Source: Niallia taxi
GTDB lineage: Bacteria > Bacillota > Bacilli > Bacillales > Cytobacillaceae
Direction: 5' to 3'
Assembly (NCBI RefSeq): GCF_032818155.1
Contig: NZ_CP102589.1
Span: forward strand, 3,768,001 to 3,832,000
DNA length: 64,000 bases
The notes under the pieces are model-generated. The model worked only from the letters and a program-made list of their open reading frames with translations, did not search any database and had not been told where the DNA came from. The translations under genes were made by a program, and so were the position numbers. Position 1 is the first letter of the stretch. Each line of letters begins with the position of its first letter. Of the stretch, positions 10,531 to 12,339 are shown piece after piece.

Positions 10531-10854
10531 ATGATCGGTGATCGTGTTAAAAAACTTCGCTTAGAAAAAAGAATGTCATTGTCAGAACTTGCTGAACAAG
10601 CAGGTGTTGCAAAATCTTATTTAAGTTCCTTGGAGCGCAATCTCCAGTCAAATCCATCCATACAGTTTTTAGAAAAAATTGCTTCTGTTTTTAATGTTCC
10701 AGTCGACCATCTTATAAATGAGCAGCAAAATAAAGATGATCTTGACACAGAGTGGCTGAAAATCGTAAAAGAAGCAATGGACTCTGGTGTTTCCAAAGCT
10801 GAATTCCGAGAGTTTCTTGAATATAATAAATGGAGAATTGAACAAAAAAAATAG
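10531..10854 (+). CDS. sinR: Biofilm master repressor SinR
   Basis: The 107-residue protein is nearly collinear with B. subtilis SinR. The N-terminal HTH (residues 5-60) contains VAKSYLSSLERNLQSNPS, almost identical to the SinR recognition helix region. The C-terminal part (residues 70-107, LDTEWLKIVKEAMDSGVSK) is the dimerisation/SinI-binding helical hook. SinR represses matrix genes and is titrated by SinI. No sinI precedes it here; instead a short sinI lies about 250 bases downstream on the opposite strand (11100-11219). A terminator follows at 10888. The recognition helix suggests the same DNA target as in B. subtilis. Confidence 0.9.
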   Translation: MIGDRVKKLRLEKRMSLSELAEQAGVAKSYLSSLERNLQSNPSIQFLEKIASVFNVPVDHLINEQQNKDDLDTEWLKIVKEAMDSGVSKAEFREFLEYNKWRIEQKK

Positions 10855-10887: not shown

Positions 10888-10916
10888 AAGACACAAGCAA
10901 TTGTGTCTTTTTCATT
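10888..10916 (+). terminator. Intrinsic terminator of sinR
   Basis: A 9-bp stem (10888-10896 with 10901-10909) with a four-base loop is followed by TTTTCATTTATT. From here to 11099 I see only AT-rich sequence and a weak hairpin at 11020-11040 that might end the converging sinI transcript. Confidence 0.85.
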
Positions 10917-11099: not shown

Positions 11100-11219
11100 C
11101 TAATCGTTATTGATGAAATTACGCACATCTTTTATGTCCAGTCCTATTTTTTTTGCTTCCTTCATTAACTGAATCCATTCTGTGTCTAGTTCTTCTACAA
11201 CTAATTTTTCCTCTATCAC
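11100..11219 (-). CDS. sinI: SinI-type anti-repressor, 39 residues
   Basis: A short frame starting with GTG encodes 39 residues. Residues 10-37 (ELDTEWIQLMKEAKKIGL, then DIKDVRNFIN) match the SinR-binding helices of B. subtilis SinI (ELDQEWVELMVEAKEANI) and the matching hook in the nearby SinR. The N-terminus is shorter and the Pro/Ser-rich tail of B. subtilis SinI is absent. A purine-rich GAGGGG lies about ten bases before the start. Unlike B. subtilis, it is not upstream of sinR but on the opposite strand, behind a c-di-GMP riboswitch. It should bind and inactivate one or both SinR-type repressors. Homology is clear; activity is inferred. Confidence 0.82.
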   Translation of the reverse strand: MIEEKLVVEELDTEWIQLMKEAKKIGLDIKDVRNFINND

Positions 11220-11251
11220 TTAATTCTGCCCCTCTCCCAAAAATACTTATT

Positions 11252-11340
11252 GTACTTTGGCAGTCCGGCTGTCATTGTTCAATAACTTTAGACCCGTGAC
11301 TTTGCGTCCCAATCTTTCGAGTTGGTTTGCCCTGTTCTTT
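11252..11340 (-). promoter_or_regulatory. Cyclic-di-GMP-I (GEMM-I) riboswitch in the sinI leader
   Basis: Read on the minus strand from 11337, the sequence has every conserved GEMM-I block in order: AGGGCAAACC, a hairpin with stem CCAA/TTGG capped by a CGAAAG GNRA loop (11326-11310), GGGACGCAAAG (11311-11301), the tetraloop receptor GGGTCTAAAG, a stem GTTATTG/CAATGAC, and the closing ACAGCCGGACTGCC (11272-11259). The GGCA/TGCC closing stem P1 is intact. The aptamer ends about 40 bases before the sinI start codon. Its 3' CTGCC is complementary to GGCAG inside the ribosome site (11233-11227), suggesting translational control. A TATAAT box lies at 11356-11351; the -35 is poor. Confidence 0.92.
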
Positions 11341-11513
11341 TATGAATTTTATTATATAACTTTTCTTTTTACATATGTGTATAAATTTGTAAGAAATTTT
11401 GAATTCCAACAAATTATTTTTCTACTTTTTTCTACATTTTTACATAATTCTAGTATACATTTGCCATTTTTTTGTATAATCATGTTGGTTTCTGTCGAAA
11501 TATTCAACTAAGT

Positions 11514-11717
11514 TTATTTGTCTTTTTTTACATACTGATTTCTGTATGCTGATAAAACTTTCTTAAAAGAATAATTCACATGAATTTTTTCAAAGGTCAT
11601 TGCATCAAAAAACGGGTACTTAGTGAGGTCATTATTGCAGACTGGACAAAACCATTCTCCTCTTTCACTGCTGCTGTATGAAGGCCGATTGCACTTATCA
11701 CAGTTTTTTCTATACAT
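11514..11717 (-). CDS. Small zinc-ribbon protein
   Basis: The 67-residue protein begins MYRKNCDKC and contains two Cys-x2-Cys pairs (residues 6-9 and 24-27, CDKC and CPVC) spaced as a zinc ribbon, then an aromatic and basic tail ending YVKKDK. It could bind nucleic acid or a protein partner; no family name comes to mind. The ATG follows CAGGTGG. It sits between the c-di-GMP riboswitch/sinI unit and the second sinR-like gene, with GTTCTTT-type SinR boxes and overlapping inverted repeats in its upstream region, so it probably belongs to the same regulatory island. Function unknown. Confidence 0.65.
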   Translation of the reverse strand: MYRKNCDKCNRPSYSSSERGEWFCPVCNNDLTKYPFFDAMTFEKIHVNYSFKKVLSAYRNQYVKKDK

Positions 11718-12012: not shown

Positions 12013-12339
12013 ATGGTTGGTACAGCACTGAAAAGATTGCGGTTAGAAAAAGGCTACTCGATCAATGAGCTATCTGACCGGGCAGGTGTCTCTAAGTCTT
12101 ACTTGAGCTATATTGAACGGGGAATTCAGAAGAATCCTTCATTACAGGTCCTTTCAAAGCTTGCTTCTACCCTTGACACACACGTGGAAGAGTTACTCGA
12201 AACAAATCCAACTTCAACAGACAACTTGGATTCAGAATGGGTAAACTTAGTAGAGGAAGCCATTAAGGAAGGAATAACAAAAGATGAGTTTTCTTGCTAC
12301 CTGGAGTTCATCAAATTCAAAAAGTCATCTGCAGATTGA
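12013..12339 (+). CDS. Second SinR-family repressor (SlrR-like role possible)
   Basis: This 108-residue paralogue has the same plan as SinR: HTH at residues 5-60 (VSKSYLSYIERGIQKNPS) and a SinI/SinR dimerisation segment (NLDSEWVNLVEEAIKEGIT, from residue 71). Differences in the recognition region (YIERGIQK versus LERNLQS) and in the hook suggest partly different partners. In B. subtilis the SinR paralogue SlrR is repressed by SinR and forms a complex with it; the SinR-type boxes over this promoter suggest an analogous circuit. It is shorter than SlrR (152 residues), so orthology is not claimed. Ribosome site AAGGAG. Confidence 0.8.
   Translation: MVGTALKRLRLEKGYSINELSDRAGVSKSYLSYIERGIQKNPSLQVLSKLASTLDTHVEELLETNPTSTDNLDSEWVNLVEEAIKEGITKDEFSCYLEFIKFKKSSAD

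Follow-up and report, generated by a model that had tools for sequence, protein, structure and literature searches.

In Bacillus subtilis, SinI binds the repressor SinR and so relieves repression of matrix genes. SinI titrates SinR, so dose matters. All papers below are cited from excerpts. Activation of B. subtilis sinI by Spo0A is described in PMC8876208, and biofilm formation in this species is reportedly not controlled by c-di-GMP (PMC4879592). In Bacillus thuringiensis, array data cited in PMC7793685 have sinI up at high c-di-GMP. Opposite a SinR homologue in Paenibacillus, a c-di-GMP-I aptamer was found using a 500-nt limit and read as antisense-acting (PMC9943018). Finally, Table 4 of PMC4342826 lists (c-di-GMP)-sinI, BMMGA3_08510, among putative 5' UTR riboswitches of Bacillus methanolicus MGA3, obtained by comparing RNA-seq 5' UTRs with Rfam. 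There, as here, an RNA of this class is ahead of sinI. In the excerpt it occupies one table row and one sentence, and neither mechanism nor phylogeny is treated, whereas the present analysis covers many genera and adds a Shine-Dalgarno (SD) hairpin, Spo0A boxes and genomes with several units. Hence, our initial annotation, which knew of no described c-di-GMP riboswitch on sinI, was incomplete. As far as the literature searched shows, the arrangement is already in print once; no description was found of how widely it occurs, of its SD hairpin, of its presence in multiple copies or of its Spo0A boxes. Note that the search, which covered few subscription papers, returned no study titled on a sinI riboswitch. 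Both terms occur in PMC8876208, PMC10240345, PMC4879592 and PMC6143707; in the excerpts, no such riboswitch is tied to bacillar sinI, and PMC10240345 uses the name sinI for another gene.

The window, meaning the whole 64,000-nucleotide stretch of Niallia taxi DNA analysed here, contains a full-length c-di-GMP-I (GEMM-I) aptamer and sinI on the minus strand (Table 1). Four conserved GEMM-I blocks had been recognised on this strand by eye, and the sequence and the RF01051 alignment both agree. The match spans model positions 1-87 of 87 (E 3.5e-14 for the window) and is well above the gathering score of 35. Ligand-contact residues of c-di-GMP-I riboswitches are named as G20, A47 and C92 in PMC4744006; the G20 and A47 equivalents are at model positions 11 and 38 of the Rfam alignment. 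In the Vibrio cholerae Vc2 riboswitch, C92 touches the ligand (PMC4744006). By our own alignment, as distinct from that of Rfam, the CC at the aptamer 3' end is the candidate equivalent, with Vc2 C92 probably matching one of these two terminal cytosines. The P2 GAAA tetraloop is present, with the loop UCGAAAGA in the RF01051 alignment. Apart from the aptamer, Rfam at gathering level yields one further match in the window, a TPP riboswitch (41160-41051, minus strand, 71.5 bits).

Table 1. Coordinates of the aptamer-sinI unit and flanking features within the window
Feature	Position	Strand	Basis
sinR orthologue, convergent with sinI	10531..10854	+	HTH_3 and SinI domain; solved SinR 1b0n_A over 1-106, E 7.2e-38
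Terminator-like hairpin 3' of sinR, between sinR and sinI	10888..10909	+	consensus scan
sinI, 39 codons, GTG start	11100..11219	-	PF08671 49.5 bits (cut-off 31.4); solved SinI 1b0n_B, E 0.0041
Shine-Dalgarno region GGGAGAGGG	11230..11238	-	sequence; mean unpaired probability 0.45 free, 0.88 aptamer-forced
SD-sequestering hairpin, predicted	11237..11260	-	leader fold: CCAAAGUAC (11260-11252) with GUAUUUUUGG (11246-11237)
c-di-GMP-I (GEMM-I) riboswitch aptamer	11256..11341	-	RF01051 80.3 bits, full length
Spo0A-box-like heptamer TGTCGAA (TTCGACA on sinI strand)	11493..11499	+	motif match, about 150 nt upstream of aptamer
Second SinR-like repressor gene, other flank of unit	12013..12339	+	HTH_3 and SinI domain; 1b0n_A, E 1.7e-26

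The aptamer ends 36 nt before the GTG of sinI, in line with the distance of about 40 bases first estimated. The gene is a stand-alone short ORF with a SinI domain, and its product, which resembles the solved SinI structure, is expected from its sequence to be an anti-repressor that binds SinR and lifts repression. Just upstream of the unit, on the sinI strand, there is a 67-codon cysteine-containing ORF (11514-11717) with no Pfam match above cut-off. The window unit shares its aptamer sequence and fold, contact residues and 5' leader placement with other RF01051 riboswitches. It differs in target, a 39-codon gene for a predicted anti-repressor acting on a master regulator of biofilms, and in its predicted expression platform, a short SD hairpin that would borrow the aptamer's own CC. 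SinI and SinR proteins are common to this locus and B. subtilis. The aptamer is not: an RF01051 search found nothing in a 14-genome control set that includes B. subtilis.

We then consider how the leader folds. In the predicted free fold (leader 11341-11180), C11260 and C11259 pair with G11237 and G11238 of the SD, with a probability of 1.0. These are the first two cytosines of a hairpin ordered CCAAAGUAC-AAUAA-GUAUUUUUGGG, and they are also the terminal CC of the aptamer. Additionally, C11263 and U11262 pair with G11234 and A11235. If the Rfam aptamer fold is imposed and the CC is kept from pairing, positions 11238-11230 go from a mean unpaired probability of 0.45 to one of 0.88. In the predicted free fold, the GG of the SD is paired to a CC that would switch with the aptamer. 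The lower 7-pair stem of the hairpin is still able to form in this ligand-like fold. Note that, leaving ligand and tertiary contacts out of the count, the aptamer-like fold lies 10.6 kcal/mol above the free fold, which implies a kinetic or strong-ligand regime.

Since the CC pairs with the SD in the predicted free fold, and ligand binding should free the SD, we infer translational ON control by the ligand. This is the best-supported logic, and ON control had been proposed from the start; it rests on prediction, drawing on the leader fold, the SD hairpin and the rise in SD accessibility once the aptamer is withdrawn. We assign a probability of roughly 0.7 to the main reading, that the c-di-GMP-I aptamer gates sinI translation, ON with ligand, while Spo0A probably drives transcription. 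Briefly, the sinI mRNA would start with an aptamer that controls translation. Without ligand, the last CC of the aptamer and the nucleotides that follow are predicted to form a hairpin hiding the sinI ribosome-binding site. With c-di-GMP bound, the aptamer would keep its CC, leaving the hairpin without its closing pairs and the ribosome site free, and SinI would be made. SinI could then capture SinR, easing repression of matrix genes.

Some details of this switch differ from those first proposed. The initial annotation placed the aptamer 3' CTGCC at 11265-11261, paired it with GGCAG, and had formation of P1 release the ribosome site. The sequence puts CTGCC at 11263-11259 and GGCAG at 11230-11226. 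In the full-leader fold, CTGCC pairs instead with the SD sequence GGGAG (11238-11234), and the GGC of GGCAG (11230-11228) pairs with the P3-strand GCC (11269-11267). Pairing of CTGCC with GGCAG is the minimum only if the aptamer is omitted from the fold. Moreover, GGCAG is found in just 4 of the 11 aptamer-bearing leaders at sinR loci of the genus (L003, L023, L041, L045). Release of the SD by P1 was also rejected: no extended P1 helix was seen by inspection, the sequence 5' of AGGGC being A-rich and pairing little with the 3' flank.

The arrangement is conserved in relatives, as the check proposed for it had asked, starting with the genus. Thirteen genus genomes contain 118 RF01051 matches and 70 PF08671 matches. 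Defining a stand-alone SinI frame as an open frame under 100 aa, an aptamer is on the same strand, within 400 nt upstream, for 30 of 43 such frames. Every one of the 13 genomes has at least one aptamer-sinI unit, and in 11 of them the sinI at the sinR locus has an aptamer. In the other two (G006 and G009; loci L030 and L039), sinI beside sinR is without the aptamer, with no remnant at E up to 1, and each genome carries aptamer-sinI units elsewhere.

The window genome has 10 aptamers. A SinI frame follows two of them, namely the window copy and another at C1:933389-933476. The second unit (G000:C1:933233-933476; L004, L016, L233) has a hairpin of other sequence and the same form, CCUUAU-loop-AUAAGGAGG, with the arms paired in the full-leader fold; a 45-nt fragment folds differently, leaving the SD in a loop. 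This unit has its own TGTCGAA box. Its flanking genes look like galU and a TagA/WecG-type glycosyltransferase gene, with a galE-like gene next; these names come from reading the translations, as opposed to a family search. The genome also has a third stand-alone SinI-like frame (G000:C1:848307-848378; L015, L047), which has no aptamer within 400 nt upstream. The assembly has contigs C1 (3.84 Mb) and C2 (1.44 Mb); each carries c-di-GMP-I aptamers as well as GGDEF genes.

Beyond the genus, we used a strict DNA pattern in which the aptamer core is joined to a SinI motif; this recalls 26 of the 30 genus units. It was found in 114 of 193 family genomes (18 of 25 genera) and 100 of 397 order genomes (47 of 136 sampled genera). 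In a phylum sample it matched 3 of 398 genomes, all three from the same order. A reversed-pattern control gave zero among the rows listed for the family and order scans. Note that these whole-genome counts rest on the pattern alone; among units taken as loci, 177 of 181 are SinI. A scan of named genomes, which gives breadth and no rate, found at least 117 stretches with the pattern. Genera among the matches listed are Niallia, Cytobacillus, Peribacillus, Lederbergia, Oceanobacillus, Virgibacillus, Metabacillus, Neobacillus, Rossellomorea, Mesobacillus, Paenibacillus and others.

Pooling loci from the genus, the named genomes, and the family and order scans gave 181 unique units. An HMM built from genus units identified a SinI ORF in 177 (26 genus loci, 107 named, 44 from other genomes). 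The remaining four (L125, L134, L151, L172) are not SinI and were dropped from verified counts; they are still within the counts for G20, SD accessibility (176 units), the hairpin (120 units) and upstream boxes (78/173). A G occupies the G20 place in 172 of the 181 units, the four included, and in 174 after inspection of nine exceptions, the 172 not being inspected singly; this position is not fixed by the search pattern. Conversely, the pattern itself demands A47, which is why finding it in all units carries no evidential weight. As for the CC, 143 of the 177 verified units have it where expected and another 12 close by, leaving 22 without it. These two points, the preset A47 and the 22 units without the CC, slightly lowered our confidence in the ON reading.

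The SD hairpin was also sought in these relatives. A common leader form in many of them is CCUGGAAUAC-loop-GUAUUUUAGGGGG, where the final CC of the aptamer starts the hairpin and the opposite arm ends in the SD. With ungapped scoring, at least 8 of 9 hairpin pairs are present in 64 of 120 nonredundant units (drawn with the four non-SinI units retained), compared with 2.0% of shuffled tails, and fewer than 8 in the other 56 in the register tested. Among the 64, 62 have a 3' arm that touches an SD-like run. When the count is restricted to the seven pairs beyond the aptamer, 51 of 117 units form them all, compared with 1.1% after shuffling. Two-sided changes are also seen among the 64; near the loop, for example, eight units replace A-U by U-A and seven replace it by C-G. 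In an SD-anchored register, using 159 of the 181 units (89 nonredundant, 60 with a loop of at least 3), the fraction of paired cells was 0.773, against a permuted mean of 0.727 and a best permutation of 0.782. When 5' arms were swapped between units, 39% still reached the pairing threshold. RNAalifold gave no consensus structure for an unconstrained alignment of 89 leaders, in which the alignment was spread over variable loops. We conclude that SD pairing is far beyond what composition gives, but that covariation proper is weak, since both hairpin arms are conserved.

Withdrawing the aptamer and CC raised the unpaired probability of the SD in 139 of 176 units and lowered it in 16, the mean moving from 0.34 to 0.63 (of the 181 units, 5 with no SD assigned were left out, and the four non-SinI units were kept). 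Leaders with shuffled spacers also rise on aptamer withdrawal, from 0.45 to 0.61. Hence, part of the SD-release effect is generic.

These data bear on other ways in which the aptamer might act. Were it an OFF switch, ligand would lower SinI and high c-di-GMP would keep SinR active. GEMM-I OFF switches are known, for example upstream of a chemotaxis receptor gene in B. thuringiensis (PMC7793685, from the excerpt), and persistence of the lower 7-pair stem in the ligand-like fold would suit one. However, no alternative element hiding the SD was found in that fold of the window leader, and SD accessibility moves the other way on aptamer withdrawal, both in the window and in all but a minority of units. 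We consider an OFF switch unlikely. Attenuation of transcription, rather than control of translation, has precedent in Bacillus GEMM-I switches that use terminators, such as Bc1 with two (PMC11218506, again from an excerpt). In the 36-nt window leader, between aptamer and GTG, neither the sequence nor a consensus scan reveals a hairpin followed by a T-run, which argues against a terminator, and the predicted hairpin overlaps the SD. Attenuation is therefore very unlikely.

Alternatively, the transcript might run into convergent sinR, with the aptamer acting on sinR and sinI being incidental. This is the published proposal for the Paenibacillus SinR homologue, where the excerpt also has the aptamer on the strand opposite a SinR-like gene (PMC9943018). 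By tblastn of our 177 verified units, a sinR-like gene is indeed convergent downstream in 73. Yet aptamer and sinI stay together in 47 units where sinR is downstream and co-directional, and in 45 where it was not found nearby (sinR is upstream only in 4, and 8 loci are too short to tell). Because sinR has the same direction in those 47 units, antisense control of sinR was set aside. Furthermore, the organisation of the leader centres on the ribosome site of sinI and, in the window, a terminator-like hairpin on the sinR strand separates the two genes. We judge an antisense role highly improbable. Whereas the Paenibacillus case was read as antisense, a small sinI is between aptamer and sinR in our 73 convergent units, and in 68 of these the aptamer is within 500 nt of the sinR stop. 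Hence, by analogy, a missed small sinI ORF could explain printed antisense cases such as that in Paenibacillus. Finally, the aptamer might be a residue with no present role, as its absence from the sinR locus in two genus members could suggest. Against this, the window aptamer scores highly (80.3 bits), G is kept at the G20 place though the pattern leaves it free (174/181), and the strict pattern recurs with sinI in 47 of 136 sampled order genera. We give this idea very little credence.

Having preferred translational ON control, we turn to transcription and to supply of the ligand. The heptamer TG[TA]CGAA, which we take to be the core of the Spo0A box, was found in the 300 nt preceding the aptamer, counting both strands, in 78 of 173 units (the four non-SinI units not removed). 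The equivalent figures are 4.9% for shuffled sequence and 23 of 408 for distal stretches. Eight of the 181 units, with too little or masked upstream sequence, were left out. Of the 83 boxes, 52 start 125 to 51 nt before the aptamer. Among verified SinI units, 77 of 169 have a box and 92 do not. The rate is alike with sinR nearby (52/117) and without (20/44), and 19 of 30 genus units have a box. Units without a box include L023, the close sister of the window, and those at the sinR loci of the other Niallia clade. On this motif evidence, transcription of the aptamer-sinI unit is probably under Spo0A. The upstream enrichment suggests a two-input gate, in which sinI would depend both on Spo0A, acting at the promoter, and on c-di-GMP, acting at the ribosome site. 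The window genome encodes 21 GGDEF domains, so c-di-GMP is likely made.

A fuller reading goes further, and all of its parts together have, in our estimate, somewhat less than an even chance. In this reading, sinI would be a two-key gene across much of the order, with Spo0A opening transcription and c-di-GMP opening translation. A short hairpin would make ligand and ribosome site compete for the same two cytosines, and several units per genome would feed SinR. B. subtilis, having no aptamer, would be an exception among differently wired relatives, and some printed 'antisense c-di-GMP riboswitches' would be missed sinI genes. SinI-SinR and c-di-GMP, two central biofilm switches, look to be joined at the RNA level in the predicted folds. 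If so, c-di-GMP would directly set the dose of an anti-repressor in many bacilli, the wiring of B. subtilis would not be simply transferable to its relatives, and the reading of some riboswitches called antisense could be corrected.

The nine exceptions at the G20 place were inspected individually. Two, L068 and L138, were mis-hits. The other seven aptamer-sinI units have A at this position: L061 (Virgibacillus subterraneus), L063 (Lentibacillus persicus), L100 (Pullulanibacillus pueri), L105 (Lentibacillus sp. CBA3610), L147, L207 and L230. In Geobacter, A at the G20 place goes with sensing of 3',3'-cGAMP. By analogy, these seven units could sense another dinucleotide. Separately, a record titled Chryseobacterium sp. 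ISL-80 contains an aptamer-sinI unit of Bacillaceae type (L076), and is probably mislabelled or mixed.
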